A DNA stretch of 64,000 bases from an uncultured Bacteroidales bacterium (GTDB lineage Bacteria > Bacteroidota > Bacteroidia > Bacteroidales > Bacteroidaceae). The DNA lies in the NCBI GenBank assembly GCA_902799685.1, contig CADCBO010000009.1, positions 41,289 to 105,288 of the forward strand. The letters are read 5' to 3'. The first letter of the stretch is position 1. Every line of letters starts with the position of its first letter. Below, piece by piece: positions 46,727 to 60,928 of the stretch. The notes under the pieces were generated by a model. It saw only the letters and a program-made list of their open reading frames with translations. It was not told the origin of the DNA and ran no database searches. Position numbers and translations under genes: made by a program.

Positions 46727-46765
46727 GGTTAATAATAAAATGGTAATTATAGATTGATTATACCG

Positions 46766-46773
46766 CAAAGATA
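46766..46773 (-). promoter_or_regulatory. -7 box of the RAYT gene
   Basis: Minus-strand TATCTTTG, 39 bp before the ATG and 4 bp from the neighbouring REP-A copy. Confidence 0.55.
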
Positions 46774-46777
46774 TAAA

Positions 46778-48084: not shown

Positions 48085-48089
48085 ACCCA

Positions 48090-48097
48090 CAAAGATA
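48090..48097 (-). promoter_or_regulatory. -7 box of serB
   Basis: Minus-strand TATCTTTG immediately before the serB ATG; a REP-A copy begins four bases upstream. Confidence 0.55.
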
Positions 48098-48101
48098 TAA
48101 A

Positions 48102-48180
48102 ATGATACAATTGGGGTCAGACCCCTTTTGCTCTATTTTTCAAAAATGATACAAAAGGGGTCTGACCCCAATTGTATCAT
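48102..48180. repeat. REP-A inverted doublet between serB and the iminopeptidase gene
   Basis: Copies 48102-48136 (right arm decayed to TTGCTCTAT) and 48146-48180 in opposite orientation, joined by TTTTCAAAA. Ends two bases from the iminopeptidase stop. Confidence 0.92.
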
Positions 48181-48182
48181 TT

Positions 48183-49064
48183 TCAGTCGTGAGCAGTGAG
48201 CCAGGCCGTCAATACATCGCAATACTCCCGATGAGCATCCACAAAGCACATATGGCGGGAGCCACGGAACAGATGCCACTCGCTGCCCGGAATATTCTCA
48301 TAAAGCGATGCCGCCACCACCGGCGTACAAATATCGCGCGTACCGCTGCAAATCAGCGTCGGCTGTGTAATCCTGCACAGCTTATCCGTGTACTCAAAAT
48401 CCTTCAGACTACCCAGCGGCTGATACTCATTCGGCCCCCAACCATAAAGATAAGACTCTGTGCCAGAGCGCTTTGGCCTACGCAAACACTCAGGCGAGCC
48501 ATCATCCACGCTAGTCACAAACAGCTCAAAATAATGCTCATTTGCGCGAATGTAGTCCGCATCATCCCATGCCCCCGTCGCCTCAGCCCGACGTATAGCC
48601 TCCTGGTCCTCGGCCGACATATATTTTATAAGCCGATGCTGCTCGCTGGCCCATAACGAACTCGATGCGTGGCCCGATGAAAGAATCATCGATTGTACAC
48701 CAACAGGCTCATTATCAATAGCATACGCAATAGCCTGCATCGCGCCCCAAGACTGTCCCAGGATATGAACCCTATCCAACTTCAGGTACTCGCGCAGGGC
48801 AATCAGCTCATCAATCCACGTCTTGAGCGTCCACAGCTCCGGATGCCCGTCCAGATACGAATTCCCGCACCCAATCTGATCGTACGAAATCACCTGCCGG
48901 CCCGTGTCGGCCATGCAATCCAGCACCTCAAAATAATTGTGCGTACTCCCCGGCCCGCCGTGCAGCAGCAGTAGCGGAGCCTTGTCCGATGCCTCCCCCA
49001 CTATCCGGTAGTACGTCTCATGCCCCAAAAACGGCATGTAACCCTCAGTAATTTTTCTGTCCAT
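48183..49064 (-). CDS. Proline iminopeptidase-family alpha/beta hydrolase
   Basis: A 293-residue cytosolic serine peptidase that removes N-terminal residues, usually proline. Seen: oxyanion 'LLLHGGPGSTHNYF', 'VISYDQIGCGNS', nucleophile elbow 'ILGQSWGAMQA' (Ser about 105), Asp in 'CSGTRDICTP' and His in 'GSRHMCF'. It is the S33 family, tricorn-interacting factor F1 type ('proline-specific peptidase'). Lies between repeats on both sides; no operon partner is evident. Confidence 0.9.
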   Translation of the reverse strand: MDRKITEGYMPFLGHETYYRIVGEASDKAPLLLLHGGPGSTHNYFEVLDCMADTGRQVISYDQIGCGNSYLDGHPELWTLKTWIDELIALREYLKLDRVHILGQSWGAMQAIAYAIDNEPVGVQSMILSSGHASSSLWASEQHRLIKYMSAEDQEAIRRAEATGAWDDADYIRANEHYFELFVTSVDDGSPECLRRPKRSGTESYLYGWGPNEYQPLGSLKDFEYTDKLCRITQPTLICSGTRDICTPVVAASLYENIPGSEWHLFRGSRHMCFVDAHREYCDVLTAWLTAHD

Positions 49065-49084
49065 TTTATATCAAATCCAACAAA

Positions 49085-49119
49085 ATAGTACAATTGGGGT
49101 CAGGCCCCTTTTGTATCAT
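49085..49119 (+). repeat. REP-A copy upstream of the iminopeptidase gene
   Basis: Arms ATAGTACAA / TTGTATCAT, core GGGGTCAGGCCCC; five bases after the stop of the next upstream gene. Confidence 0.9.
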
Positions 49120-49124
49120 TTTTA

Positions 49125-49712
49125 TCATTCCCAGTGAACAAGCAGCGGATTGAGCCGGATTTTGCGTGGGCTACCGTTGTGCCCACGGATCTGATAATCA
49201 CCCGCAATCTCATCAGGCAGCAGTTCTTTAAGCCGTGCATTCAGGACCGATGCCTTCTCGCTGAAAGAATTGTCCTCCAGATCCACCAAGCGCGCCACCC
49301 GAGCTTTTACATCCTCCATAAAAGTATTAGGATTAATCGTGGAATAAATCTCCTCCAGCTCCGTCCTATAATCATCCCGATGCTTAAGCAGAATGCCCTC
49401 CGGATGCCGTAAAAACAAGATAAACAGCGTCTTAACCAACGGCCGCAGCTGTAGAATCTGCCCATCGGCCACACCCATTCTAATATTAAATTCCTTATCA
49501 ATATACAATTCAACTGGCTCAGCCAGCCGTTCCACACCGACCCCAAGATCCTTAAGCCGCTCCTGAACCATAACCATAAGCGCCATCAGCTGGGTCGCCT
49601 CCATACCATCCAGCAAATCGCCATAATCAACCGGCGGTTCACACAGCATCCCGGCCGCTCCGCTAAACAGCAAGCGCCACATCATCCGGGCCTCAAAAGT
49701 TCCACTTGTCAT
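49125..49712 (-). CDS. Unknown protein sharing a domain with the product of 49867-50244
   Basis: A 195-residue protein with no signal peptide or recognised family. The C-terminal 100 residues contain 'LVKTLFILFLRHPEGILL', 'ELEEIYSTI', 'SFSEKASVLNARLKELL' and 'IRGHNGSPRKIRLNP', and align block by block with the neighbouring 125-residue product, where the first block reads 'RTLYQLFINHPEGIRAD'. The N-terminal half (about 1-85) is unique to this copy. Start Met 49712 is chosen by a -7-like box TATCTTTA eight bases upstream. The shared domain may be a winged-helix type, but this is a guess. Confidence 0.6.
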   Translation of the reverse strand: MTSGTFEARMMWRLLFSGAAGMLCEPPVDYGDLLDGMEATQLMALMVMVQERLKDLGVGVERLAEPVELYIDKEFNIRMGVADGQILQLRPLVKTLFILFLRHPEGILLKHRDDYRTELEEIYSTINPNTFMEDVKARVARLVDLEDNSFSEKASVLNARLKELLPDEIAGDYQIRGHNGSPRKIRLNPLLVHWE

Positions 49713-49800
49713 CACACCATAAAGATACGCAAAAATCCATCACCAACCAAGACCAAGCACCATTTTTCCATAAAAAAACGATCAACAATTCCAAACAAAT

Positions 49801-49815
49801 ACAAGCTTGTAATCA
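49801..49815. repeat. ACAAGCTTGT palindrome upstream of 49867
   Basis: ACAAGCTTGTAATCA recurs at 53367-53381 within a perfect 16-bp palindrome. Here it is followed by TTTG (49817-49820), 19 bp from CACCTTTG, a possible promoter for the 49867 gene. Confidence 0.4.
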
Positions 49816-49866
49816 CTTTGAATTGCCGATTAAGGACACCACCTTTGTCCAATAAACAATAGTCCG

Positions 49867-50244
49867 ATGAATAACCAGCATCCAATCATCCCCGGCCCAC
49901 GTCCAGGCCAGTTCCATCTGCCCGACAACGACATCATAGTATATCTCAACCCAATGGAACGGACTCTATACCAACTATTTATAAATCATCCCGAAGGCAT
50001 TCGGGCCGATGCCCTGTCACTACACTGGCAAGAACTGTACCGCCTCTACGCCCACGAATCGGTCTTTGATGATAAGCAACTGATGCTAAACAAAATAGAA
50101 AACCTTTGCAGCAAATCAAAAATCGTTTTCTACTCCAACATCTCCAGGATAAAGCACAAGTTCATCAGCACCCTAGGCACCCGCAAAGCTAAAAACCTCA
50201 TCATAATCCGCCACCCGGACGGCCGATATCGCATCGGCCACTAA
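49867..50244 (+). CDS. Unknown protein, short relative of 49125-49712
   Basis: A 125-residue basic protein. 'PMERTLYQLFINHPEGIRAD', 'WQELYRLYAHES', 'FYSNISRIKHKFISTLG' and 'IIIRHPDGRYRI' correspond to blocks in the divergent neighbour. It starts with a Pro-rich segment ('HPIIPGPRPGQFHLP'). The pair flanks a 150-bp divergent region. Such a pair could be regulator and partner, but no DNA-binding motif can be named with confidence. Confidence 0.6.
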   Translation: MNNQHPIIPGPRPGQFHLPDNDIIVYLNPMERTLYQLFINHPEGIRADALSLHWQELYRLYAHESVFDDKQLMLNKIENLCSKSKIVFYSNISRIKHKFISTLGTRKAKNLIIIRHPDGRYRIGH

Positions 50245-50260
50245 AACACACTCATAATTA

Positions 50261-50950
50261 TTACAAGTTTTTTATAGTATCCTCTATCTCCCAAACAACC
50301 TCCTTTAGCGCCGCTTTAAGTGTCTGACGTTCAAGTTCATCAAAATTCTCCGGGGCATTTTTATTAAGAAAATGTGCCTTGAACCAAGAGGCGTTCTCTC
50401 CATAATAATCTTTAGCCAATGTGCCCCATTTAATCCATCGGCCCAAACATAGCAAGTAATCCTTCATAGAGAGCTCTATACGCATTTGGTCAGGCTTAAA
50501 TTCATGTAACGTCTCCGGATGTTCTTTTGATTCTTTAATTGAATCCTCTATTCTCTGCCTCTCTTGATCTATCATTTCTTCGGTGGAGCCATAGAAAGTC
50601 ATATCAAAGAGGCAATTAGCCACAATCCGACTGGCAGAAAAGGAATCAAGCGTTTCTTGGCAAACAACCATTCCCAACCACTCCTTCCACGGACAAAATG
50701 ACAGAGCCCATCTTTCATCATCACCCTCCTTAATACCAATTACTTCGGGATAGACACGTTTAGGCTCCAAAATATCAGGCGTCAATTCAATCTTAATACT
50801 ACACTCCGAATCTACAGGATCCATGAGAGACAATGTTTCAAAAACAATCTCGAAACTCTCCAGTCTCTTTCTAAACCAAGGATGGTCAGACACCAAGGCC
50901 ACCGCCACATCTTGCCATTGTACCTGATTAATCAACTCTTTCAGTATCAT
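50261..50950 (-). CDS. Unknown protein, DUF6557-like
   Basis: A 229-residue acidic cytosolic protein. 'LKELINQVQWQDVAVAL' at the N-terminus and 'WALSFCPWKEWLGMVV' in the middle recall small Bacteroidetes proteins often found in accessory clusters (possibly DUF6557), but the assignment is from memory of the pattern only. No catalytic motif or membrane segment is seen. Its promoter (-7 TACATTTG at 50972-50979, -33 TTTG at 51001-51004) shares the palindrome at 51000-51030 with the divergent gene at 51077. Confidence 0.6.
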   Translation of the reverse strand: MILKELINQVQWQDVAVALVSDHPWFRKRLESFEIVFETLSLMDPVDSECSIKIELTPDILEPKRVYPEVIGIKEGDDERWALSFCPWKEWLGMVVCQETLDSFSASRIVANCLFDMTFYGSTEEMIDQERQRIEDSIKESKEHPETLHEFKPDQMRIELSMKDYLLCLGRWIKWGTLAKDYYGENASWFKAHFLNKNAPENFDELERQTLKAALKEVVWEIEDTIKNL

Positions 50951-50971
50951 AACTCCAAATCAATATTTGCA

Positions 50972-51057
50972 CAAATGTACAGCGGCCACCAGACCCTCTC
51001 CAAATCTCTGCAAGGTTTGCAAGGATTTGGCCGCACGGGATATACTTCCAATCTTTG
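50972..51057. promoter_or_regulatory. Bidirectional promoter built on the 31-bp palindrome (copy 1)
   Basis: CCAAATC...GATTTGG palindrome at 51000-51030. Outward TTTG boxes lie 21 bp from TACATTTG (minus, 50972-50979) and 20 bp from AATCTTTG (plus, 51050-51057). Drives 50261-50950 and 51077-51943. Confidence 0.6.
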
Positions 51058-51076
51058 CCGAAAAGCAAGCACGATT

Positions 51077-51943
51077 ATGACCAAACGCATTACTAGAGAT
51101 GACCCCATGTACATAGAAGCCCTTTCCTGGATGTCATACCGATACGCAATCGGCATAACAGAGTACCCCCATCGCAATGGACTTAGTGAAGCCGAGCGAT
51201 ACCGCATGTTTCGGGACATAGAGTTCAACACCCCCGAATTCCAAGCACTCTCAGCTGCATTCACAGACTTCCTTAAGCGAAAGAAAATAACGGACGTAGT
51301 GGCTCTAAGAGACCAATACCGCGAGAACGACCTCATCTGGCTCTCACGCAATTATGCTATGGGGCGTCACTCTTATGCGGCATCTCATTGCAATGACATC
51401 TTAAGCTATTCCAACGATGTGCTGTCCCCCGAGAGGAAAGAGTTTATGGCCCGCGATATCCGCAGCCAAATTGCTGATCACCTTCGTTGGCACTCCTTCT
51501 TTATTCCTCGCGAACTGGAAGAAACGTACAGTCCGCTTGACCTATTTCTCCAATTCATTACCGAGAACAATATTGATTCCGATGAAAAATACCAGGAATA
51601 CAGCCGTATAGATGTATATCTTTCTTCCGATGGTCAGATATCATTTGCCACAGAAAAGAAAGAACATAATAAATCATATTTCAGTTTCATGTCCGACATA
51701 GACGATTACCTTGGTTGGGACCAACTAGCCTCATTTTTCTTCCCACCCTGTCATAAGAAATGCCGAATCAGATTCAATGGTCAGGAATCTATCATCCCGT
51801 ATATAAACTCATGGTCAAGGATTTATTACGGTAGTGGTAATTACCGCTATGAACGCGTCAAAATACCAATCGACAAACTCCCCAACCTGTTTGTACGAAC
51901 ATACATCAATCAAGACTACATTGTGGAAGACAATATTCTGTAA
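51077..51943 (+). CDS. Unknown protein (288 residues)
   Basis: A soluble, Tyr/Arg/Asp-rich protein beginning 'MTKRITRDDPMYIEALSWM'. No recognised domain. Seen: 'LDLFLQFITENNIDSDEKY', 'LGWDQLASFFFPPCHKKC' with two cysteines, and 'VKIPIDKLPNLFVRTYI'. Start 51077 is preferred since the upstream part of the frame crosses the palindromic promoter at 51000-51057. Codon use and composition are like the other unknown genes of the 49-59 kb region. Function cannot be stated. Confidence 0.55.
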   Translation: MTKRITRDDPMYIEALSWMSYRYAIGITEYPHRNGLSEAERYRMFRDIEFNTPEFQALSAAFTDFLKRKKITDVVALRDQYRENDLIWLSRNYAMGRHSYAASHCNDILSYSNDVLSPERKEFMARDIRSQIADHLRWHSFFIPRELEETYSPLDLFLQFITENNIDSDEKYQEYSRIDVYLSSDGQISFATEKKEHNKSYFSFMSDIDDYLGWDQLASFFFPPCHKKCRIRFNGQESIIPYINSWSRIYYGSGNYRYERVKIPIDKLPNLFVRTYINQDYIVEDNIL

Positions 51944-51983
51944 ATCATGAAAGAAACCCGTCCACGCAAACGTAAAAAATAGT

Positions 51984-52313
51984 ATGGCAATCAAAGCACA
52001 TGACACTTTCTGGCAGCGGCGAAAGATCCGAGGCCTACAACCAATCCTTCTCGAAATCATAAAAGTTGAGGAAATCATCGGCACACACGCCATCTGCAAA
52101 GTCCGATGGCATATTCTAGGCAAAGACGCCCCATCCAAGTCCGTCTTCCCAATGGCCACCATAACCGACAATCATTTTGCAGACTTTGTCCCAATCCAGC
52201 GTACGGTCTATCTCAAAGCCCTTGGCATCCTAAATGACACTACCCTAGACTATCACAAACGCAAGAGCCGGATCCTTTATCTCATGAGAGACCTCAATTA
52301 CACTGACGATTAG
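51984..52313 (+). CDS. Unknown protein, paralogue of the C-terminal part of 57316-57807
   Basis: A 109-residue basic protein: 'QRRKIRGLQPILLEIIKVEE', 'VRWHILGKDAPSKSVFPMAT', 'HFADFVPIQRTVYLKAL' and a 'YTDD' end. The same blocks in the same order form residues about 55-163 of the protein at 57316, where they follow a shortened metallophosphoesterase. Here the copy stands alone and is followed 24 bp later by a different broken metallophosphoesterase. The family is not recognised; it may be an accessory partner of phosphoesterases. Confidence 0.6.
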   Translation: MAIKAHDTFWQRRKIRGLQPILLEIIKVEEIIGTHAICKVRWHILGKDAPSKSVFPMATITDNHFADFVPIQRTVYLKALGILNDTTLDYHKRKSRILYLMRDLNYTDD

Positions 52314-52336
52314 CAATGAAATAAAAAGGCAGAACA

Positions 52337-52574
52337 ATGAAAATACAATACATGAGTGACCTCCACCTGGAGTTCACTGAAAACCTGCATTACATTAAGA
52401 CAAAACCGTTCCAACCAGTTGGAGAAATACTGGTTTTGGCTGGCGATACCTTCTACCTGCGCGACACCATCGCCCCGCAAATGAATTTCTGGAGTTTGTA
52501 ACCAACTCGGTTACGTCTATTACAAAGAACACTTGACAAACGGGTTTGATCCCTGTAAAACGATTGAAATATAA
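52337..52574 (+). pseudogene. Metallophosphoesterase remnant (internal deletion and frameshift)
   Basis: From ATG 52337 the frame reads 'MKIQYMSDLHLEFTENLHYI' and 'EILVLAGDTFYLRD', the first two metal-binding blocks (DLH, GDT) of calcineurin-like phosphoesterases, then stops at 52499-52501. In the +1 frame the DNA continues as 'VCNQLGYVYYKEHLTNGFDP' to TAA 52572, which looks like the family C-terminus. The GNHE and later His blocks are missing. So a deletion of roughly 150-200 codons joined head to tail out of frame. Not functional. Confidence 0.7.
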
Positions 52575-52673
52575 GGTATTAGACTTATTTTTGATTAAGA
52601 AAATTCTCAAATTCCTTCCTTGTCACACCCATTGTCCTCAAACAATTAAGGATAATAAACTCAGGTATGGGAT

Positions 52674-53009
52674 CTATGTGAGTTTGAATAATAAATCATC
52701 CTCCAACGTATTGTTCTCAAGACCATAACGGAGATACTCAGACACAACCACCTTAAAGGATTGCTTCGCCTCCTCAACAGTAGATCCATACCCACACAAG
52801 TCTAAAGCAGGGGCATACATCATCTGTACGCCGTTATCCTTGTATGAGAAAACGTCCAATAAAACCCTAATGGTTGTACTATCGATATCAATACGGTTCA
52901 TAGTCAAAAAGAGTTGGCTAGCAAAATTAGGCACTTCATCCGAATAATCCAAAATTATCATTGAATTCCCTATCCTTGCTGCACAGTTGATAATCATCTT
53001 ACTTTTCAT
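52674..53009 (-). CDS. HicB-like (antitoxin-type) protein
   Basis: A 111-residue protein. 'YAPALDLCGYGSTVEEAKQS' and 'VVVSEYLRYGLENNTLEDDL' match the partial RNase-H fold of HicB-type antitoxins common in Bacteroidetes. Its ATG overlaps the end of the upstream gene by 11 bases, so translation is coupled. No HicA toxin with the usual double-stranded RNA-binding fold is seen next to it; a short open frame directly downstream in another frame (to about 52585, 'GVTRKEFENFLNQK') may be a frameshifted tail. Orphan or decayed system. Confidence 0.55.
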   Translation of the reverse strand: MKSKMIINCAARIGNSMIILDYSDEVPNFASQLFLTMNRIDIDSTTIRVLLDVFSYKDNGVQMMYAPALDLCGYGSTVEEAKQSFKVVVSEYLRYGLENNTLEDDLLFKLT

Positions 53010-53310
53010 ACATCTCCTTGGGGATGTTTGCCAAATGATTGGCCGATGTTTGTGTGAGACCTGTTTCTTTTAATACTGCATTCATATAATCATCGGCCAT
53101 CTTACCCATGTTGTGGGTAATATTCCCGTGCCAATAATCCTCATCGGTATAATCATACTCATGAATGTGCAACAGATCAGAATCAGGAAAATGCGCCCTA
53201 ACCTCCTCCATCGTCTTCAATTCAACATTTCGTCCATTCTCACGGATATAAACGCTAGTTCCATGTTTTACCACTGGTTTTGGTGAAATAATGTACAGAT
53301 CAAGAGACAT
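52999..53310 (-). CDS. Small phage-type protein of the 'NITHNLGKMA' kind
   Basis: A 103-residue protein starting 'MSLDLYIISPKPVVKHGTSV' with 'VYIRENGRNVELKTMEEV' and 'GNITHNMGKMADD'. Proteins of this pattern occur in phages and accessory regions of many bacteria, function unknown. It appears a little shorter at the C-terminus than relatives I recall. A -7 box TAGATTTG (53330-53337) and the ACAAGCTTGT palindrome lie upstream. Coupled to the HicB-like gene. Confidence 0.6.
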   Translation of the reverse strand: MSLDLYIISPKPVVKHGTSVYIRENGRNVELKTMEEVRAHFPDSDLLHIHEYDYTDEDYWHGNITHNMGKMADDYMNAVLKETGLTQTSANHLANIPKEMYEK

Positions 53311-53363
53311 AACAAATACTATTTTTCTGCAAATCTACACCCATAAAGCAGCAAATAAAAGCA

Positions 53364-53381
53364 ATTACAAGCTTGTAATCA
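53364..53381. repeat. Perfect palindrome ATTACAAGCTTGTAAT upstream of 53310
   Basis: A 16-bp perfect dyad, 27 bp upstream of the -7 box of the small phage-type gene; shares ACAAGCTTGTAATCA with 49801-49815. Confidence 0.45.
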
Positions 53382-53432
53382 TTTGTTTATTTCTACAGTT
53401 TTTCTAATGGGAGGCTGCCAAAGATGACGGTT

Positions 53433-53484
53433 CCTTGCAAACCTTGCAAAGATTTGACATCCCCAATCATACTCCCGAACTTTA
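53433..53484 (+). promoter_or_regulatory. Promoter with half-decayed 31-bp palindrome (copy 2)
   Basis: CCTTGCAAACCTTGCAAAGATTTG keeps the right half and centre of the palindrome (53433-53456); -33 TTTG 53453-53456 is 20 bp from GAACTTTA (53477-53484). The left half is replaced by a REP-B fragment. Confidence 0.5.
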
Positions 53485-53491
53485 CAAAAAA

Positions 53492-55057
53492 ATGAATCGT
53501 ATGGACCACTTCAGAATCACACAACCCATTCTAAACAGCATTATGCACAGTACGCTCAGCGACGATGTGTATCTGGACGAAAAATCCTTTGCCCTGCTGC
53601 TGGAGATACAGAAAACGCTCTCGGTCTTTGAACCTATAGAAGACGATGAAGCCAGGAAACTCTGGCTGGAGATTCCTCGTGGTTCTGCCGAAGAGTGGAA
53701 AGCGTTTGAGGACACACATAGTTGGTATTCAGATGACCTGGAAGGTTATCGTGAAGCCCTGGATGAGGATTATCCCCGTGAGACGGAATGGTTCTTTATG
53801 GTAACCTCAACCTATCGCGAACACACCTTCCTTAAAATCTCGGACCGTGATTATCGGTATGTAATCTTCACCAACAGGTCTTTCCACAAAGATGCTACAC
53901 CCTCAGATATGACTTGGTTTCTGGAACCGCTTCTCACGCTGATCCAAGAACGGGTTGCAACCATCGCTAAAGATACCAATGCTTACAACCTTCATATAGA
54001 AAAGGATCTTCCCTACCGACAGCGCTCGGGCCAGATCAAAAGCAAAGACCTGAACAGGATTATCCCTGAATGGCGATTGGAAGTCGAGGACCGTGAATAT
54101 TGCATCAAGGTGATGGAGGAACTTCTGCGCAGAGAAAAGGTCTATGAATCCACAAAAGACGCGTCGAAGGTCGATTGGGAAAGCATAGGTGTGCCTACCC
54201 CGTTTGATACTATGACTATCCGTACGTTCTGCAAATACTATCGAATAGCAGACGGAATTTTCCTGTGCGGATCGGAAGAGTCTCAGAGCAAGATGGCAAA
54301 CAGCACAGAAAGCGACGTGGATTACTATTCCCAGCAAGGTTTACACCATAATCTTGACGATTGTGATTGTGACAGCGAGAAGGCATTCCAGGACTTCGCA
54401 CAGGACCACTACGGAGAACTCGGCCTGTCCAGAATGAACGTAAGGGCCACCAACCATTATGCCGGCGGGAAATGGATAATTTCATTCAGTATCAGCTACT
54501 CCGCATCCGTCGAAACCGGCCTTAAGATTGCAATGGCGCTATACAAGACAGGGGCGCCTTTTGTCTTTTATGATGCAAACAATCTACTCCATATCCTAAA
54601 GGAAACGGGCCAGGTGCGCATCCTTCCATTCACATTCCACGACTATATTGGCGGGGGTGATGATGAGGGGGTATTCGATCTTCCATACATTGAGGACTGC
54701 GACAAGGAAGGCGAAATCACGCGCAAGCAGTACGATGAAATCGTCCGATTGGCCAAGTGGGAGCCGGATGTGAAGCTGAAACTGGACGCGCCTATTCCGC
54801 TGTACGATGCCGTCTATGACCTGATCCGAGATGAAGCCGATGCCCCTATGACGTTAAGCGAAATCCGCCGCCGGATTGAAAATAAGTATGACACCTACCT
54901 GTCCGTTTACCGGGATGATGGCAACAAAGGATACTACTACATCAAACCATCAAAGGCCAACAAATACTCCGACAAAAAGAGCAATAAGCACTACCCCACC
55001 TTCAACGAGGCTATGAAGGCCTTGATACTAAGCATCAAAGACTTTAAATTAGACTAA
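53492..55057 (+). CDS. Unknown large soluble protein (521 residues)
   Basis: Not recognised. Acidic, Tyr/Asp-rich, no signal peptide or membrane segment. N-terminal part 'MNRMDHFRITQPILN', a charged middle with 'DDCDCDSEKAF' near 310, and a C-terminal region 'PIPLYDAVYDLIRDEADAP' followed by 'TLSEIRRRIENKY', which resembles a winged-helix (HARE-type) DNA-binding fold. Start at 53492 or the Met three codons later is set by the promoter just upstream. Member of the group with the CCAAATC palindrome promoter. Confidence 0.5.
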   Translation: MNRMDHFRITQPILNSIMHSTLSDDVYLDEKSFALLLEIQKTLSVFEPIEDDEARKLWLEIPRGSAEEWKAFEDTHSWYSDDLEGYREALDEDYPRETEWFFMVTSTYREHTFLKISDRDYRYVIFTNRSFHKDATPSDMTWFLEPLLTLIQERVATIAKDTNAYNLHIEKDLPYRQRSGQIKSKDLNRIIPEWRLEVEDREYCIKVMEELLRREKVYESTKDASKVDWESIGVPTPFDTMTIRTFCKYYRIADGIFLCGSEESQSKMANSTESDVDYYSQQGLHHNLDDCDCDSEKAFQDFAQDHYGELGLSRMNVRATNHYAGGKWIISFSISYSASVETGLKIAMALYKTGAPFVFYDANNLLHILKETGQVRILPFTFHDYIGGGDDEGVFDLPYIEDCDKEGEITRKQYDEIVRLAKWEPDVKLKLDAPIPLYDAVYDLIRDEADAPMTLSEIRRRIENKYDTYLSVYRDDGNKGYYYIKPSKANKYSDKKSNKHYPTFNEAMKALILSIKDFKLD

Positions 55058-55101
55058 CATTATGGAAAGACTGGAAGAAGAATGTTTACAACATAAGCGA
55101 T

Positions 55102-55785
55102 TTACCACTTAAAATCATACGGTGGCTTATCATAGTCATAGGTAAGCTGTGATATCTCGCAATCCAGACTCTTGGCGGTCTTCTTCAAGCGCTGCAGTAT
55201 TTCCTTGTAATAAAAAGTATTATATACCGATCCGAACATATAATCCGCAAGATAGCCAAAAGCGGTTTTTTGAGAAGCCCACCGCAGCGCATGCAAATGT
55301 TTATAATTAATATCCTCCATATACTGCATCAAGTACGGATTTGCGCAGTATACCGCCCCATCTAAAAACGGCATCATCGCGTCTGCATAGCGCTTTGAAT
55401 AAGTTCTGATAGCATCTCGAAGGGCATCTTCGGCCATACTGATTACCTTGACATCCTTCTTTGAGCAAGGACGCTCCCGCATATTATATCTAAGAACAGC
55501 AAAGTAGAAGATAATATGGGTCCAGGTAATCTCAACGCCAAAGAATTCCCCGGGACTATTGTCCACCGGATGCTTCTTAGCCGTTGTACGCATACCCATG
55601 AACCCATGCCGGATATCATAACAAAAACTGGCGAGGATATTATCCCTGTCATATTCATTCACATCAGAAGCCTCTTCCTGCGGATTCCAGAACTTTTCAA
55701 CGGTTTCATAAAGATCGTGAAGCTCCATCTGCGTCCCCCAGAGCCGGACACCAGCACCGTGAGGGGTTGGAATAAATGTAATCAT
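55102..55785 (-). CDS. Unknown protein, DUF6904-like
   Basis: A 227-residue protein. 'MITFIPTPHGAGVRLWGTQM' then 'LHDLYETVEKFW' and 'SFCYDIRHGFMGMRTTAKK' resemble a family I recall as DUF6904, found in accessory loci of many bacteria. No catalytic residues are known. The 3' ends of this gene and of 53492-55057 converge, 44 bp apart, with no clear terminator. Confidence 0.55.
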   Translation of the reverse strand: MITFIPTPHGAGVRLWGTQMELHDLYETVEKFWNPQEEASDVNEYDRDNILASFCYDIRHGFMGMRTTAKKHPVDNSPGEFFGVEITWTHIIFYFAVLRYNMRERPCSKKDVKVISMAEDALRDAIRTYSKRYADAMMPFLDGAVYCANPYLMQYMEDINYKHLHALRWASQKTAFGYLADYMFGSVYNTFYYKEILQRLKKTAKSLDCEISQLTYDYDKPPYDFKW

Positions 55786-55889
55786 AAATATATCTACCTT
55801 ATGATGTCAGAAACTCTTTCCTTTCTGCAAAAATATCAATCTTTCCTTTGATATTATACAATTATCAGGTATTCATAGGCATTTGGGGC

Positions 55890-55921
55890 GTTTTTTCGGA
55901 CGCCGTTGGATTAGAACCAAT
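55890..55921 (-). other. Degenerate tRNA 3'-end fragment
   Basis: Minus strand CATTGGTTCTAATCCAACGG resembles the T-arm and acceptor of the tRNA at 55966-56036 (GTTGGTTCGAATCCAACCG). No other tRNA parts are present. Confidence 0.4.
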
Positions 55922-55925
55922 GTAG

Positions 55926-55965
55926 AAAATGTGGAATTGGAGCCAGTCCCCTTTTCCACATTTTG
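55926..55965 (+). repeat. Diverged REP-A-like palindrome between tRNA fragments
   Basis: AAAATGTGGAATTGG ... CCCCTTTTCCACATTTT: same centre layout (AATTGG, CAG, CCCCTTTT) as REP-A, but arms ATGTGGAA/TTCCACAT, changed on both sides so that pairing is kept. Confidence 0.6.
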
Positions 55966-56036
55966 TGGCCGCGGTTGGATTCGAACCAACGTATCGACAT
56001 TACAAGTGTTGTCCTTTGCCACTAAGGTACGCGGCC
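55966..56036 (-). tRNA. tRNA-Thr (UGU)-like gene, divergent
   Basis: A 71-nt cloverleaf: acceptor GGCCGCG/CGCGGCC (7 bp), T8-A9, D stem CCTT/AAGG with loop AGTGGCA, anticodon stem CAACA/TGTCG (one A-C mismatch) with loop CTTGTAA (anticodon TGT), variable ATAC, T stem GTTGG/CCAAC with loop TTCGAAT, discriminator A. CCA is not encoded. The short D-loop and the mismatch suggest a phage-type or decaying tRNA, not the housekeeping copy. Confidence 0.6.
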
Positions 56037-56160
56037 TGGACCGGGATTCTTATCCTTCTTCCCGGCCCCAGGTTGGCCGATAGGATTCAGAGTATTTCAA
56101 GCTGATGCTGTTAGCCCATGATCTGCCAATTAATCTAACCCGCCGTATAATAAGTTGATT

Positions 56161-56225
56161 TAGAGGCGGGTGCGGGACTTGAACCCGCAGCCTTGGACAT
56201 TCTTGTCGAAACACTAAACCTCTGT
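56161..56225 (-). other. tRNA-like remnant (T-arm and 3' acceptor only)
   Basis: Minus strand GCGGG-TTCAAGT-CCCGC is a perfect T-arm followed by ACCCGCC, but the matching 5' acceptor GGCGGGT and a 7-nt anticodon loop are missing. Together with 55890 and 55966 it suggests a decayed tRNA cluster. The rest of 55786-56345 contains a repeated ATTGGCAGATCA and a 9-bp hairpin near 56038-56068; no ORF is supported. Confidence 0.4.
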
Positions 56226-56345
56226 AGAGCCTATGCTTTGAACCATAATGCAGAAGCTTTGGCACGATGCTGATGCTTACATACACCCCACCGGGATGCA
56301 AATAACTCTAAGTCATAATGCTAACGCTGATCTGCCAATCAGGAA

Positions 56346-57152
56346 TCATTCCGTCCCGTAGAAGATATACCCCAAGAACTTGTCCGCAGCAAGATTAGGT
56401 TCCATAGTAGGCGTATCATTAACCGTTTTAGTTGCTTCTATTACAGCATTCAAAAGTCTGCTAATACGCTCTTGAACCAATTGTTTCTGCCTCAGCGGCC
56501 ACTCTCCAGAGAATTTCTGCGACGTATATGATCCTCGTTTTATAGTAGTTTTAACCTCTTTAGTAATAGGCCGATAACTGGACGGAAGATGCTCCTTGTC
56601 AATATTGGGATCCAGCAGAATCTCAGTATCCGTGATAGTAGTGAAACTATCCCCTTCCAGCCGCGGGGTCTCAAAAATATCATCACGACCCTGGTAGTCT
56701 TCATTCTCACTTGCCTTCCAAATCTCGGAATCAGACCTTACGGGAATATTGGCAATCAGATTCTTCAGATTCTCATCGGTCAAGATATTCTTGAGTCTTA
56801 GAAGTTCCGTAGCCGACAGATCTCCCAGATTGAGCCCATCCACCATAAACGGCACTCTTGCCGAACCGGCTGCATTAGTAGCCTCAATCGCAAACTGATC
56901 CTTAAGATAAGGCAGCAGCGACCCATTCACCAACCTCTTGATTTCTTCCGATACCGTTGTAGCCACTACCGTGTGCCCCATCTTTGTAGGATCCTCCAAT
57001 TGGCCCTCGGCAGCATGGAAAGTCTTCTTCTCCCCTTTAAAAGAAGAGGTATTCCTCTTAAAAAAGTCCACCTGCCTCCTAAGCGATTCCGTATAAACCG
57101 ACCGCTCATGCTCGGCCTTAGCCAGCGTAACATTCATCTTTTCCTGTGTCAT
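56346..57152 (-). CDS. Unknown protein found with AAA ATPases (DUF7873-like)
   Basis: A 268-residue soluble protein, 'MTQEKMNVTLAKAEHERSVY' at the start, 'GHTVVATTVSEEIKRLVNG', 'FMVDGLNLGDLSATELLRL' and 'LRQKQLVQERISRLLNAV'. It looks like a family found next to phage-type AAA ATPases in Bacteroidetes accessory loci (possibly DUF7873), named from memory. Start 57152 is preferred to an upstream codon since the -7 box TAACTTTG is at 57221-57228. It shares its palindromic promoter with the divergent gene at 57316, and its promoter type with the AAA ATPase at 58455-59627. Confidence 0.6.
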   Translation of the reverse strand: MTQEKMNVTLAKAEHERSVYTESLRRQVDFFKRNTSSFKGEKKTFHAAEGQLEDPTKMGHTVVATTVSEEIKRLVNGSLLPYLKDQFAIEATNAAGSARVPFMVDGLNLGDLSATELLRLKNILTDENLKNLIANIPVRSDSEIWKASENEDYQGRDDIFETPRLEGDSFTTITDTEILLDPNIDKEHLPSSYRPITKEVKTTIKRGSYTSQKFSGEWPLRQKQLVQERISRLLNAVIEATKTVNDTPTMEPNLAADKFLGYIFYGTE

Positions 57153-57220
57153 ATCATAAGTTTTAATAGTTTTCCAATAGCCGTGACTCAAACATGAGAC
57201 AACTCCGGCATTTCCAAAGG

Positions 57221-57306
57221 CAAAGTTATACCCACCGCATCACCCCCTCCAAATCTCTGCAAACCTTGCAAAGATTTGGCTTATCAGCACAAACTTCCGA
57301 GATTTG
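57221..57306. promoter_or_regulatory. Bidirectional promoter built on the 31-bp palindrome (copy 3)
   Basis: Palindrome CCAAATC...GATTTGG at 57249-57279. Minus: TTTG (57250-57253) 21 bp from TAACTTTG (57221-57228). Plus: TTTG (57275-57278) 20 bp from GAGATTTG (57299-57306). Confidence 0.65.
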
Positions 57307-57315
57307 TCAAAAACT

Positions 57316-57807
57316 ATGATTATGAACTACAATTTTGACCCGGGACACACTTTGTTTACGTCCGACACGCACTTCAATCACGCCAATATCATAAGATTAT
57401 GCGGCCGCCTGCAGTATCTCTACCCCACCCAATATGACGTAGGAGTGGATAACAACAACTTCACCCCCGTCTCATTCTGCCAGAGGCGGAAACTCCGCGG
57501 CATGCAGCCTATACTTTTGGAGGTGCTGGAGGTAGAAGAGGTTATAGGGACCCGTGATATCTGCCAAGTCCGCTGGCATATTCTTGGCAAAAACTCCGTC
57601 TCCACGTCCGTTTTTCCGATGGCCACAATCACAGAAGGGCATTTTGCCAGCTTCGTCCCCATACCCCGTGAACAATTCCTTAAGGCAATGGACATCCTGA
57701 ACACGCCCTCCATCGACTATCCAAAATGCAAGCGGCGGATCCTAAGACTAATGAAAGATTATCATTACACCGACGATGAACCGCTGTGTTCCTCACATCC
57801 GATATGA
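57316..57807 (+). CDS. Shortened metallophosphoesterase fused to a paralogue of 51984-52313
   Basis: A 163-residue composite. Residues about 10-30 'TLFTSDTHFNHANIIRLCGR' are the first metal-binding block (DTH) of a calcineurin-like phosphoesterase; 'YDVGVDNNNFTPVSF' (about 40-55) is the C-terminal end of the same family. The middle, with the GNHD and other catalytic histidines, is missing without loss of frame, so phosphatase activity is unlikely. From 'CQRRKLRGMQPILLEVLEVE' to 'YTDD' it matches the 109-residue protein at 51984. Start may be 57316 or Met at 57322. Confidence 0.6.
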   Translation: MIMNYNFDPGHTLFTSDTHFNHANIIRLCGRLQYLYPTQYDVGVDNNNFTPVSFCQRRKLRGMQPILLEVLEVEEVIGTRDICQVRWHILGKNSVSTSVFPMATITEGHFASFVPIPREQFLKAMDILNTPSIDYPKCKRRILRLMKDYHYTDDEPLCSSHPI

Positions 57808-57811
57808 GCAT

Positions 57812-58312
57812 ATGGGAACAAATGTTTATATGAGAAGGATTCCGACTGAAGCGCAGAAAGAAGAGCTCAAGCGGCTGCTGAAGAAGCAATACGAGGATTC
57901 CATAGAGTCAATCGACCGGGACGAAGACCTGAGACCCGCCGAGGGTGACTGGCAACTAGCCGATGAAATCGAAAAGACGCGAAAAAGAATTTATGAGGAA
58001 GTGCACATCGGAAAACGCTCCTGCGGCTGGAAATTCCTCTTTGCCCCGAGTCCGGAACATTATGACGAAACCAAAGAGTCCATCTTGCAGTTCATCCATC
58101 AAGACGGCTGGCAACTGTTCGACGAATACGGAGACAAAATCGCCCCGGACAAATTCTGGGATGAATACGTCACCTGCATGGAAGACGGCTGGACAGGCGA
58201 AACTTACGACCGCTGGGAAAGGGAGCAAGGGCATTACTACCATTCTGCTGCCAGCTATGAGCATGTTACCTCAGCTGGCCTCCGCTTCGCAAGAGACACA
58301 GATTTCTGCTAG
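57812..58312 (+). CDS. Unknown protein of the 'MGTNVY' phage-associated type
   Basis: A 166-residue acidic protein. 'MGTNVYMRRIP', 'VHIGKRSCGWKFLF', 'ILQFIHQDGWQLFDEYGDKI' and 'DKFWDEYVTCME' form a pattern seen in small phage and accessory proteins that begin 'MGTNYY'. Role unknown. Start at 57812 lies four bases after the previous stop; an in-frame upstream codon inside the neighbour is less likely. Cotranscribed with the phosphoesterase fusion. Confidence 0.6.
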   Translation: MGTNVYMRRIPTEAQKEELKRLLKKQYEDSIESIDRDEDLRPAEGDWQLADEIEKTRKRIYEEVHIGKRSCGWKFLFAPSPEHYDETKESILQFIHQDGWQLFDEYGDKIAPDKFWDEYVTCMEDGWTGETYDRWEREQGHYYHSAASYEHVTSAGLRFARDTDFC

Positions 58313-58363
58313 TTTCTGTTAAGACACAGCTGAGCCTAGTCTTTTTGGTTGTCAATTACTCGT

Positions 58364-58450
58364 ACAAAATGGGAACAGTCCCCTTTGATATGAACCCCGA
58401 AAGTTGAACAAAAAACTTTCGAGGTTCATATCAGTTTGGAACTGTTTTGC
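58364..58450. repeat. 85-bp hairpin between convergent genes
   Basis: CAAAATGGGAACAGT... GATATGAACCCCGAAAGTT pairs with AACTTTCGAGGTTCATATC ...GGAACTGTTTTG around a short A-rich loop. The end lies five bases from the AAA gene stop. No typical T-run, so it is either a transcript-end structure or another REP-like insertion ('GGGAACAGTCCC' core). Confidence 0.65.
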
Positions 58451-58454
58451 ACCA

Positions 58455-59627
58455 TCACACCAACATCCCCCGATACAAGGAAGGTGTTTCTTTCCTCTTA
58501 AGGAGCAGACAGAGTGCGTCCGAGTCATCGTACCGTGAACGCATCATAAAGAACCCGTCTGCATCCGGTTCGCTTACAATTGAACCCATTGATGTTGTGG
58601 ATTCGCGCCACAGGGATGATGACGTCGATGTCATGGTATGCTTAGAAACATAATCAAATTCTTCACGCAGCAGATCCATGGCATCGTTATCACCATCCTT
58701 TGATTTCCATTTGGCAATCCACTCATTTATAGACGAATAACCACTTTCAGCCATCTTGGAGCGGATAAAATTCACCACCTCCACCTTAGATTCCATACTC
58801 TCCAGATAATGGAACTGAAGTATTTCATAAGCAAACTTGGCCACAGGAATATTCAGACAAGGCTTATCAGGCAACTCTCCATGAATATTCACCTCATCCA
58901 CCAAAGCTTTAAGAATATCTATGGTCGATATCTCCAGCAGGTCAATCTGCTGCAGAATCTTCTCCTTCTGATCCGACATTTCCGGCCTCAGATTGTCCTT
59001 CAGATACTCATCGATAGCCTCCGGCAGCAGGTTAGAGAACTCAAATCGGTAACGGATTCGTCCGGGTCGGCCCAGCAGATTATCATTCAGAGTCAACTGA
59101 TTGGTAGTCAATATATACAACCTGCGACACGCATTATACACGCCATCAATCAGTCTGAGCAGGATATCATCATCATCTCCCTTCTTAAAGGTCTTTTCGG
59201 CCTCATCAATAAACACAACGCATTCAAAATTCAGAGACTGCAGGAAAGGCAGCAGCCCTTCAGAGTTATTCTGAACAATCACCACCGGCAGGCCGATAGC
59301 ATTGCATAACAGCTTGGCCGATATGGTCTTACCCGTTCCTTTAATACCGTTGAAAATAATTCCCAGATTCTTGTTTCCTTCAATAAAAGGGGCCGAAAAC
59401 CATGTTTTCTTAACCAGACCTATTATCGGCTCAACGCCCAACTCATAGATTTTGAAATCAAAATCGAACCGGTCTCCAATCCTTTTAAGACCTATCCTCT
59501 TCATCATGGCAGTGCTGGTCTGAACCACCACAAAAACGCCGTCACCCGGCGATTCAAGCAAACGGGTATCGCCGCTCACAGGGAAAAAAGTACCCGATTC
59601 ATTAATCCATTGCTGATTATTTTTCAT
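58455..59627 (-). CDS. AAA-family ATPase of phage/accessory type
   Basis: A 390-residue cytosolic ATPase. Walker A 'FNGIKGTGKTISAKLLCNA' (Lys100), Walker B 'CVVFIDEAEKTF' (about 150), sensor 1 'LYILTTNQ' and arginine finger region 'LLGRPGRIRYRF' (about 185-200). The N-terminal 80 residues are a separate cap. The C-terminus ends with a Ser/Arg-rich tail. Classic AAA members remodel proteins; the target is unknown, perhaps the DUF7873-like product. Start Met 59627 is set by -7 TACCTTTG upstream. Its promoter holds a truncated palindrome copy of the same kind as the other genes here. Confidence 0.85.
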   Translation of the reverse strand: MKNNQQWINESGTFFPVSGDTRLLESPGDGVFVVVQTSTAMMKRIGLKRIGDRFDFDFKIYELGVEPIIGLVKKTWFSAPFIEGNKNLGIIFNGIKGTGKTISAKLLCNAIGLPVVIVQNNSEGLLPFLQSLNFECVVFIDEAEKTFKKGDDDDILLRLIDGVYNACRRLYILTTNQLTLNDNLLGRPGRIRYRFEFSNLLPEAIDEYLKDNLRPEMSDQKEKILQQIDLLEISTIDILKALVDEVNIHGELPDKPCLNIPVAKFAYEILQFHYLESMESKVEVVNFIRSKMAESGYSSINEWIAKWKSKDGDNDAMDLLREEFDYVSKHTMTSTSSSLWRESTTSMGSIVSEPDADGFFMMRSRYDDSDALCLLLKRKETPSLYRGMLV

Positions 59628-59650
59628 ACCTCCAACGTTAAATAACGCCG

Positions 59651-59697
59651 CAAAGGTACAACCCACCCTAACCAACCTCCAAATCTCTGCAAGGTCC
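59651..59697 (-). promoter_or_regulatory. AAA gene promoter with truncated 31-bp palindrome (copy 4)
   Basis: CCAAATCTCTGCAAGG (59679-59694) is the proximal half of the palindrome; TTTG (59680-59683, minus) is 21 bp from TACCTTTG (59651-59658). The distal half is lost, and a REP-A doublet begins at 59705. Confidence 0.6.
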
Positions 59698-59704
59698 AGC
59701 AAAA

Positions 59705-59784
59705 ATGATACAATTGGGGTCAGGCCCCTTTTGTACTATTTTTCAAAAAATGATACAATTGGGGCCTGACCCCTTTTGTATCAT
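59705..59784 (+). repeat. REP-A doublet between the AAA gene and bcp
   Basis: Copies 59705-59739 (arms ATGATACAA/TTGTACTAT) and 59750-59784 (ATGATACAA/TTGTATCAT, core GGGGCCTGACCCC), joined by TTTTCAAAAA. The second holds the bcp TGA (59781-59783). Confidence 0.92.
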
Positions 59785-60233
59785 TTTAGAATTTGTTCTG
59801 CAGCATTCTTAGTGTCCACCTTCTCGATGATGCGCTCTAAAACGCCCTCCTCGGAGAAGATGAAGGTGCGGCGCAGAGTACCCAGGACGGTCTTGCCGTA
59901 CATCTTTTTCTCACCCCAGGCTCCAAATGCCTGCAGCATCTCGGTGCTAGTGTCTGCCAGCAACCTAAACGGCAGCTCATACTTGGCCCTGAAACCAGTG
60001 TGAGACTTGGCGCTGTCCTTGCTCACGCCCACCACGTTGTACCCCGCAGCCGTCAGAGCCGCATAATTATCGCGGAACGAGCACGCCTCGGCCGTGCAGC
60101 CCGACGTGTTGTCCTTGGGGTAAAAATACACAATCGTCTTGCGGCCATTCCCTATAAAGTCCGATGACCGAACCACCTGACCATCCTGGTCAACCACCTC
60201 AAACTGAGGCATCTTATCTCCAACTTTCAGCAT
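59781..60233 (-). CDS. bcp: Thioredoxin-dependent thiol peroxidase (Bcp/PrxQ)
   Basis: A 150-residue cytosolic peroxiredoxin that reduces peroxides using thioredoxin. Peroxidatic Cys46 in 'DNTSGCTAEAC' and resolving Cys51, 'VYFYPKDNTSG', 'VVGVSKDSAKSH' and 'LLADTSTEM' are typical. 'GEKKMYGKTVLGTLRRTFIF' holds the active-site Arg. Lies downstream of sodB on the same strand, 89 bp apart with a repeat doublet between, so the two oxidative-stress genes may form one transcript. The stop is supplied by a REP-A arm. Confidence 0.96.
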   Translation of the reverse strand: MLKVGDKMPQFEVVDQDGQVVRSSDFIGNGRKTIVYFYPKDNTSGCTAEACSFRDNYAALTAAGYNVVGVSKDSAKSHTGFRAKYELPFRLLADTSTEMLQAFGAWGEKKMYGKTVLGTLRRTFIFSEEGVLERIIEKVDTKNAAEQILK

Positions 60234-60245
60234 AATTTATCAAAA

Positions 60246-60326
60246 ATAGTACAATTGGGGTCAGGCCCCTTTTGTACTATTTTTCCCAAAAATGATACAA
60301 AAGGGGCCTGACCCCAATTGTATCAT
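60246..60326. repeat. REP-A inverted doublet between bcp and sodB
   Basis: Copies 60246-60280 (arms ATAGTACAA/TTGTACTAT, plus orientation) and 60292-60326 (ATGATACAA/TTGTATCAT, minus), joined by TTTTCCCAAAA. The second holds the sodB TGA (60323-60325). Confidence 0.92.
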
Positions 60327-60928
60327 TTGTATCGTTTTTCAATAACACTCCAATCCAGAATCTGCCAGAGGGCATCCAGATGTGCGGCACGGCGGTTCTG
60401 ATAATCAAGGTAGTAGGCGTGCTCCCAGACATCGAACGTAAGCAACGGCTTGAGACCGCGCACAACTGGGTTAGAAGCGCCCGGCTCCTGCGTAATCACC
60501 AGCTCTCCATTAGCGTCACGGGACAGCCATACCCATCCGCTGCCAAACAGCCCCACGCCCTTGGCCACGAACTCCGCCTGGAATGCCTCCACGCCGCCCC
60601 ACTGCTTGACAATCTGAGCCTTCAAGCCACCATCATCGGCCAAAGCAACGCCCTTAGCGGCAAATTGCGTAAAATAAAGATTATGGTTCAGAATCTGCCC
60701 CGCATTATTAAACACCCCCTGATTGGCCGATGCACCACCAGCCGGATCAGCCCTGCACACAATCTCCTCCAGCGACAAATCCTCAGAAAGCCCGCTCCCA
60801 GGCAGCAACTTATTAAGATTATCCACATACCCCTGCAGATGCTTCCCATGATGGAAACTCAGCGTCTGAGCACTAATAACCGGCTCCAGATCCTTGGAAC
60901 CGTACGGCAATGTAATCAGTTCAAACAT
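60323..60928 (-). CDS. sodB: Superoxide dismutase (Fe/Mn type)
   Basis: A 201-residue cytosolic enzyme that dismutates superoxide. 'LSFHHGKHLQGYVDNLNK' (metal-ligand His near 26), 'ILNHNLYFTQF' (second His near 82), 'LFGSGWVWLS' and 'FDVWEHAYYLDYQNRR' (Asp and His ligands) are all present. Bacteroides homologues are cambialistic (Fe or Mn). A possible -7 box TATTTTCG lies at 60961-60968. The stop codon comes from the flanking repeat. Confidence 0.97.
   Translation of the reverse strand: MFELITLPYGSKDLEPVISAQTLSFHHGKHLQGYVDNLNKLLPGSGLSEDLSLEEIVCRADPAGGASANQGVFNNAGQILNHNLYFTQFAAKGVALADDGGLKAQIVKQWGGVEAFQAEFVAKGVGLFGSGWVWLSRDANGELVITQEPGASNPVVRGLKPLLTFDVWEHAYYLDYQNRRAAHLDALWQILDWSVIEKRYK

Follow-up and report, generated by a model that had tools for sequence, protein, structure and literature searches.

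What does a palindrome do that recurs within 9 kb of the genome of an uncultured Bacteroidales bacterium, and what do the genes that begin beside it have in common? The question arises in a stretch of 64,000 nucleotides (contig CADCBO010000009.1 of assembly GCA_902799685.1, positions 41,289 to 105,288 of the forward strand), here called the window, along which all positions below are counted. The element is a 31-bp inverted repeat, or dyad, with a centre of 3 bases. A sequence-only reading of the window had proposed that it is a promoter shared by an accessory regulon, and our analysis of the window, of its assembly (2.8 Mb in 37 contigs, about 86% complete) and of further genomes supports the view that the palindrome is a putative shared, often bidirectional operator-promoter that marks such a regulon. 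A fuller explanation, to which we assign a probability of roughly 0.55, would be that this operator-promoter serves units for RNA repair and defence, that a pair of winged helix-turn-helix (wHTH) proteins acts as its regulator, and that the units recombine at the dyads. Beyond the operator-promoter we propose a regulator (the wHTH pair), a theme (RNA repair) and a role in exchange, each with less certainty than the one before.

Promoter geometry of the palindrome

The four copies that had been counted within 9 kb proved to be two full palindromes, for which 100 dinucleotide shuffles of the sequence gave no match, and two partial ones, of which the first retains the inner core and right arm and the second only one half. 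The proposed fixed spacing holds throughout, as all six outward arms are followed by a −7-like box 20 or 21 bp from GATTTG. The boxes themselves, described earlier as TAnnTTTG-like at every copy, fall into three leftward ones that are all exact, at 21 bp, and three rightward ones that are imperfect, at 20 bp. In the five units of the window that are listed, ATG codons lie 9-68 nt beyond the −7 box. The elements are as follows.

50972..50979, minus strand: −7 box TACATTTG, 21 bp from GATTTG
51000..51030, no strand: full 31-bp palindrome with promoter geometry on both sides
51050..51057, plus strand: −7 box AATCTTTG, imperfect, 20 bp from GATTTG
53435..53456, plus strand: incomplete palindrome, inner core and right arm
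53477..53484, plus strand: −7-like box GAACTTTA, weak, 20 bp from GATTTG
57221..57228, minus strand: −7 box TAACTTTG, 21 bp from GATTTG
57249..57279, no strand: full 31-bp palindrome with promoter geometry on both sides
57299..57306, plus strand: −7 box GAGATTTG, imperfect, 20 bp from GATTTG
59651..59658, minus strand: −7 box TACCTTTG, 21 bp from GATTTG
59679..59692, minus strand: half palindrome; homology to a related locus (L029) stops at the palindrome centre

The spacing recurs in other genomes. We collected 53 distinct full palindromes (106 arms) from the window, four loci of the same genus and 46 stretches, each of at most 8 kb, that were found in a scan of 84,980 species genomes for the exact palindrome. 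An exact TAnnTTTG follows GATTTG in 45 of the 106 arms, 38 times at 20 bp and seven times at 21 bp, and only one more lies elsewhere between offsets 0 and 59. From the background rate outward of these sites one would expect 0.17 exact boxes at offsets 20 and 21, and the earlier claim that a promoter is more likely than a random repeat is borne out by this excess. Counting exact boxes only, seven palindromes have one on both arms, 31 on one arm and 15 on neither. If one mismatch is allowed, a looser count for which there is no chance figure, 64 arms are promoter-like, with boxes on both arms of 16 palindromes, on one arm of 32 and on neither arm of five. A logo of 52 non-redundant arms with 20-bp spacing displays TAnCTTTGC along with an A-rich stretch.

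These statistics strongly support a promoter role for the palindrome arms. According to an extract of PMC7366714, the Bacteroides sigma-ABfr promoter consists of a TTTG around −33 and a TAnnTTTG at −7. The arms resemble it in that both elements are present, in identical order and at a fixed distance, but differ in that the −33 TTTG here terminates a palindrome, which two promoters may have in common. We therefore propose, with the geometry taken from sequence statistics, that the palindrome would act as an operator within a Bacteroidetes promoter of the sigma-A type: the TTTG at either end of a dyad of 29-31 bp would be the −33 element, and the TAnnTTTG 20 or 21 bp outward the −7 element. Because TTTG stands at both ends, two divergent promoters can use a single dyad, each at much the same distance from it, and the dyad would presumably control both, with damage to RNA or to translation as the possible signal. 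Reckoned from the −7 box, the centre of the dyad lies near −46 of each promoter, a position that would allow an activator next to RNA polymerase, and the outer arms include the −33 elements, an arrangement that would also allow a repressor.

We searched the assembly for copies that lack a promoter or lie within genes, and only chance-like half-sites turned up. The half-site TTGCAARGATTTG, with at most one mismatch, has 16 matches, six in this region and 10 elsewhere. All 10 of the latter are without an exact −7 box and without a partner half, and eight of them lie inside stop-to-stop frames of at least 245 codons, as would fit chance. The half-site together with an exact promoter occurs only in this region, with three matches. 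Dispersal by a transposase is another way in which palindromes can multiply. Repetitive extragenic palindromic (REP) elements and their associated tyrosine transposases (RAYT) comprise many dispersed hairpin copies that a Y1 transposase uses, and a Y1_Tnp protein is indeed encoded about 5 kb away (45929-46786), with relatives in three related loci (L027-L029). We regard spread of the palindromes as REP-type hairpins by this enzyme as hardly credible, since the 2.8-Mb assembly has only two full copies, both with promoter geometry, and the hairpin that is abundant near the transposase is a different sequence, GGGGTCAGGCCCC. The latter has 13 matches (10 forward, three reverse) between 42950 and 60303, around the transposase gene.

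The full palindrome (at most two mismatches) is found in five of the 61 related genomes searched, each belonging to the same genus. Across 393 genomes of the order it occurs in our genome, with one further match at two mismatches. The titles of the 46 stretches name Bacteroidales, Bacteroidia, Bacteroidaceae, Prevotellaceae or Paludibacteraceae, and 26 of them name a ruminant stomach compartment. The exact palindrome has no match in viral contigs, and TTTG-N19-21-TAnnTTTG is absent from three phage stretches (L097-L099). In the open-access literature that we searched, no paper was found on the motif, on DUF7873 (a family encoded in the window, see below) or on a palindromic regulon in Bacteroidales. 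The rule of a dyad with a −7 box at fixed distance would gather genes of uncultured Bacteroidales, many of them from ruminants, into one regulon.

The half-site followed by an exact promoter is more widespread in the relatives than the full palindrome, with 26 matches in 14 of the 61 genomes, nine of which have no full palindrome; 10 of the matches lie in palindrome islands and 16 elsewhere, and the reversed pattern, used as a control, gave none. In six loci (L105, L106, L107, L108, L110 and L089) the half-site promoters outside islands precede mutually similar frames, which we take to be of the RhuM or Bro-N type. Of the remaining arms in the set of 53 palindromes, twelve non-redundant ones run after 43 bp into a second palindrome, which gives a distance of 72 bp from centre to centre in all 12 cases listed. 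In such pairs (L031, L035, L041, L046, L054 and others) the spacer is rich in A+T and partly conserved.

These two observations bear on the idea that the dyad is a constitutive promoter part, spread by duplication and read without any regulator. The half-site promoters outside islands are compatible with it, and because the outer TTTG belongs to the core promoter, part of the conservation would need no regulator. We nevertheless think it highly improbable, for most of the 12 non-redundant pairs retain the inner core in their second dyad as well, and the promoters of the wHTH genes described below are marked by other inner cores, as would fit specific recognition.

Gene families behind the promoters

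If the palindrome is an operator-promoter, the genes that follow it should tell us what it regulates. A looser scan of the collected loci gave 100 promoter-like arms, 92 of them with an open frame downstream; close kin among the sampled genomes mean that the counts of families and genomes given here and below are not independent. Metallophosphoesterases stand behind 22 of the 100 arms, in three families of 10, nine and three that include a chimeric frame of the window. An Rnl2-type RNA ligase stands behind eight arms and RlaP behind one, DUF7873 behind seven, a 705-amino-acid (aa) AAA protein behind six, a family of 521-546 aa behind six, and a 390-aa AAA ATPase behind four. The label 'other' was given to 14 arms and none to eight, and there are smaller groups besides. 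Pfam identifies RNA_ligase (PF09414) with T4_Rnl2_C, Metallophos and AAA among the genes borne by palindromes. The ligase aligns with the T4 Rnl2 structure 2hvq (1.8e-31) and scores 171 bits against TIGR02307, under the cut-off of 197; RlaP matches at 7.5e-71, and Thg1 (6.3e-32) is encoded farther down one gene group in L079.

The recurrence of these families supports the proposal that the shared promoter marks a probable regulon of accessory genes, in which palindrome units would drive metallophosphoesterases, the Rnl2-type ligase, RlaP, AAA ATPases, DUF7873, DUF6557 and the 521-546-aa family. The suggestion that the genes form a single accessory system was too strong, because the families change partners; relatives also carry one-armed promoter copies outside islands. 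To judge from family membership in the relatives, the theme is most likely RNA repair together with a defence-type stress response, and RNA repair would then be a possible theme for several DUF families.

Two known systems are instructive here. An extract of PMC7824862 describes RNA ligases (ATP-grasp), RlaP and phosphoesterases of jumbo phages as one repair set. The same kinds of enzyme occur here, with the Rnl2-type ligase behind the shared promoter in relatives as tallied above, and DUF7873 and a 288-aa protein of the window have relatives in Prevotella (Lak) phages; what differs is that our units lie on bacterial chromosomes behind a shared palindromic promoter, which was not found in exact form in viral contigs. 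The RtcR-controlled rsr-yrlBA-rtcBA operon of Salmonella, as far as a partial text of PMC7790460 describes it, likewise joins an RNA ligase and end-processing functions to a dedicated regulator, which in our case is a candidate. It is a single operon with RtcB/RtcA and a regulator with a CARF domain, whereas the palindrome loci consist of many separate units with an Rnl2-type ligase, phosphoesterases and winged-helix candidates.

Likeness to defence systems listed in PADLOC rests on single proteins, not on partner genes: the 705-aa AAA protein resembles IetA (7e-25), one metallophosphoesterase resembles PDC-S10 (1e-11), and a 1219-aa DUF3584 protein matches JetC weakly (3.7e-6). The DUF3584/JetC-like protein was seen in the collected loci of 12 of 41 distinct palindrome genomes (L084:6832-10488, L073:3309-7506, L036:1424-2686), with further frames near some. 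An HTH_3/HipA pair, AbiEii and KilA-N proteins also lie near palindromes (L037:1917-3535, L029:8038-8904, L039:106-924). One record labelled Bacteriophage sp. (L097, MT837973.1) has adjoining frames of metallophosphoesterase II, metallophosphoesterase I and the 521-546-aa family. Another of its frames is presumably a bacterial decarboxylase, and the phage label is therefore doubtful.

In the window the set is reduced in comparison with relatives, and consists of a DUF6557 protein, the 288-aa protein, a 109-aa protein, a 521-aa protein, DUF7873, a chimeric phosphoesterase-like frame and an AAA ATPase.

50261..50950, minus strand: DUF6557 and DUF5053 protein behind the 51000 palindrome (Pfam 2.3e-32 and 2.9e-7); 21 nt from −7 box to ATG
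51077..51943, plus strand: 288-aa protein, no Pfam match; relatives in L044 and in Prevotella (Lak) phage records
51984..52313, plus strand: protein of a 109-aa family; one further member each within 57304-57807 and in L026
53492..55057, plus strand: 521-aa member of the 521-546-aa family, no Pfam match
56346..57152, minus strand: DUF7873 protein behind the 57249 palindrome (Pfam 1.2e-25)
57316..57807, plus strand: chimeric open frame that begins as metallophosphoesterase family II and continues as the 109-aa family (phrog_547 phosphoesterase 2.1e-7, residues 8-30)
57776..58312, plus strand: 178-aa protein, downstream of the 57316 frame
58455..59627, minus strand: 390-aa AAA ATPase behind the 59679 half palindrome (Pfam AAA 3.5e-10; phrog_2376 1.2e-45)

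The 288-aa protein is about 32% identical, over 70-78% of its length, to proteins in six listed of 15 Prevotella phage records (Lak phages), and DUF7873 is 45-46% identical to a protein in ten listed of its own 15 such records. The aligned relatives of DUF7873 are about 91% alike, and no relative of it in the PDB was found by sequence. Its start is TTG 57191 in the list of open reading frames, with ATG at 57152 as an alternative that we consider likelier to be the true one. The 109-aa gene is perhaps co-transcribed with the 51077 gene, to judge from its position, and in L036 and L052 a member of its family comes first after the palindrome. The 521-aa protein shares 35-66% identity with the six members aligned, which come from other palindrome loci, and the structure model of its family is of low confidence (predicted local distance difference test, pLDDT, 59.9). 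The 390-aa AAA ATPase has a relative behind a full palindrome in L029, and PADLOC gives only weak IetA matches for the copy in the window. Between the 109-aa and 521-aa genes, at 52333-52574, lies a remnant of metallophosphoesterase family I, in which pieces of 44 bp and 78 bp match the start and end of the gene in L026 with little between.

A candidate winged-helix regulator

Next to the first unit are two divergent genes whose products are paralogues by a shared region, and a palindrome of a second type (type 2) lies between them.

49125..49715, minus strand: 196-aa winged-helix-like protein, candidate regulator; no Pfam or NCBIfam match; alignment A2; relatives beside palindromes
49792..49820, no strand: type-2 palindrome with TACAAGCTTGTA core and CAAA...TTTG ends, between the two divergent wHTH genes
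49867..50244, plus strand: 125-aa OmpR/PhoB-like winged-helix protein, first candidate regulator; AlphaFold model and Foldseek search
53362..53381, no strand: second type-2 palindrome, ATTACAAGCTTGTAAT, upstream of 52999-53310

The AlphaFold model of the 125-aa protein (pLDDT 85.9; predicted template modelling score, pTM, 0.80) has the element order of OmpR/PhoB DNA-binding domains, that is, beta strands, a helical core and a C-terminal beta hairpin, and response regulators or DNA-binding domains of such proteins fill its first 13 Foldseek rows. In these respects it is like that family; it is unlike OmpR/PhoB response regulators in that its 125 aa include no receiver domain, that its E-values are weak and that its template modelling (TM) scores by query are below 0.5.

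The gene and the palindrome are for the most part distributed alike. A strong homologue (E below 1e-50 in a single-sequence search) is encoded in six of the 61 relatives, namely all five palindrome genomes and one other, G012, and five more have weak matches. We also searched 42 genomes, the 41 distinct palindrome genomes and G012, with an alignment of the 125-aa protein (A1), which matched at 1e-10 in 35 of the 41 and at 1e-49 or better in 34, although the 17 genomes that contributed rows to A1 match it by construction. A match at 1e-10 is reached by 12 of the order's 393 genomes, and our own is the only strong one among them. The wHTH family, with the 125 and 196 types taken together, is the commonest neighbour of the palindrome in the collected loci, present there in 27 of the 41 genomes; two metallophosphoesterase clusters (19 and 16) and two families of 12 each, one of them DUF3584/JetC-like, come next. 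The distance between a wHTH frame and a palindrome is 60 to 4873 bp in the 20 of the 46 stretches that contain such a frame.

Most of the wHTH genes also have related palindromes of their own. Among distinct genes, 13 of 20 of the 125 type and 14 of 19 of the 196 type have the core T.CAAGCTTG.A upstream. In the remaining seven of the 125 type, variants with cores such as TTGGCAAGCCTTGCCAA or ACAAGGCTTGT occupy a similar position; three of these were reported by a script and four found by eye, without a chance control. Exact TNACAAGCTTGTAAT occurs in our genome at two places, 53365 (upstream of 52999-53310) and once on another contig, C2; the type-2 copy at the wHTH genes is one base off and was thus missed by the exact pattern. 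The copy on C2 (L100, C2:18500-24500) lies upstream of a 217-aa frame without a Pfam match, in surroundings that are presumably a restriction-modification island.

From linkage, co-distribution and predicted fold, the pair of 125 and 196 aa is most likely the regulator of the dyad. We propose that these proteins would bind the dyad as dimers and control their own genes through the sister palindromes.

Several observations weigh against the explanation as a whole. Regarding the promoters, 42 of the 106 arms are without a recognised box and five of the 53 palindromes are boxless on both arms, and in the window three of the six −7 boxes are imperfect and two palindromes incomplete. Regarding the regulator, the likeness to OmpR/PhoB falls short of significance, with Foldseek E-values of 0.11-0.98, TM scores by query of 0.42-0.48, and no Pfam or NCBIfam match. 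G012 encodes a homologue yet has no full palindrome. Conversely, six of the 41 palindrome genomes are without the 125-aa protein, and in the loci examined three of these have a 196-aa relative and three have neither; five of the 19 196-type genes are without the type-2 core. The co-distribution of pair and palindrome may reflect linkage on one island. The 16 half-site promoters outside islands in relatives count here too: three of them (in G006, G022 and G032) keep the inner core TTGCAANNNTTGCAA. As G022 and G032 lack both the full palindrome and a strong homologue of the 125-aa protein, at least some uses of the core cannot depend on the wHTH pair. Regarding the theme, our genome has no PF09414 ligase, and with the window set reduced the RNA-repair theme is read from relatives, while a DNA_alkylation protein and a Y-family polymerase near some palindromes make DNA repair another possible theme.

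Some of these points would be expected if the dyad is an operator for a different, perhaps chromosomal, factor, and the wHTH genes are passengers on the island. The core-plus-promoter copies in G022 and G032, the six palindrome genomes that lack the 125-aa protein, the 26 of the 46 short stretches that lack a wHTH gene, and a co-distribution explicable by linkage alone would all agree with such a factor. However, the wHTH family is the commonest neighbour and has a predicted DNA-binding fold, most of its members have sister palindromes in their own promoters, and the HTH_3/HipA pair is present in the loci of only three genomes. We therefore consider another regulator possible but on the whole unlikely, and continue to favour the wHTH pair.

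Proposed exchange of units at the palindrome

Comparison with three related loci suggests that the dyad is also a place where units are joined. Homology with L028 spans 49123 to 51030 and ends at the palindrome end; with L027 it comprises pieces at 55784-57172 and 57218-57279, again ending at the palindrome end; and with L029 it covers the ATPase unit (58441-59692) and ends at the palindrome centre. The sequence past the breakpoint differs in each comparison. Another piece of L027 crosses the palindrome into the chimeric frame (57238-57409).

The partners on the two sides also vary. The 34 two-sided units, 16 of which have a single dyad and 18 a pair, show 27 pairs of labels, 20 of them without 'other' or 'none', and metallophosphoesterase family I alone has five named partner families. 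Homology that breaks at palindromes, together with partners that change across them, indicates that the dyad is also a junction for the exchange of modules. Both observations would follow from recombination between like dyads: with the same dyad at the end of every unit, genes could be swapped between copies and would still stand behind a promoter that is already regulated. The breakpoints are observed, and unit swapping at the dyads is the mechanism that we propose for them.

The palindrome could instead be primarily a recombination or cassette junction, at which a recombinase acting on the dyad swaps genes and the promoter is merely carried along. The breaks at the palindrome end or centre in three comparisons, the change of partners and the constant 72 bp between paired palindromes are what such a junction would produce. 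The conserved spacing to the −7 box, on the other hand, requires promoter function, and homologous recombination at any repeated promoter yields the same breaks. No recombinase family stood out in the ranking of neighbours in the 41 genomes, in which no profile search for recombinases was made, and a Y1 transposase is found in four of them. We judge this reading improbable, and the operator-promoter remains our preferred account of the element.

Integron-like arrays, in which cassettes of one orientation follow a common promoter and an integron integrase is present, do not match the palindrome loci as far as compared, because each of the 34 units is arranged head-to-head, with promoter-like boxes on both sides. 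No integron integrase stood out in the neighbour ranking, which included no profile search for integrases.

Taken further, and only tentatively, the operator-promoter might act as a socket: a gene with a half-dyad and a −7 box could join any other by recombination and would come under the local winged-helix regulator, giving an exchangeable regulon for RNA repair and defence. If the operator is indeed the exchange junction, accessory genes could be shuffled while their regulation is retained.

A tRNA-Thr lies between two units of the window at 55965-56036, the only match in an Rfam scan of 48000-60500, and by eye a similar partial stretch stands just before it, near 55905.

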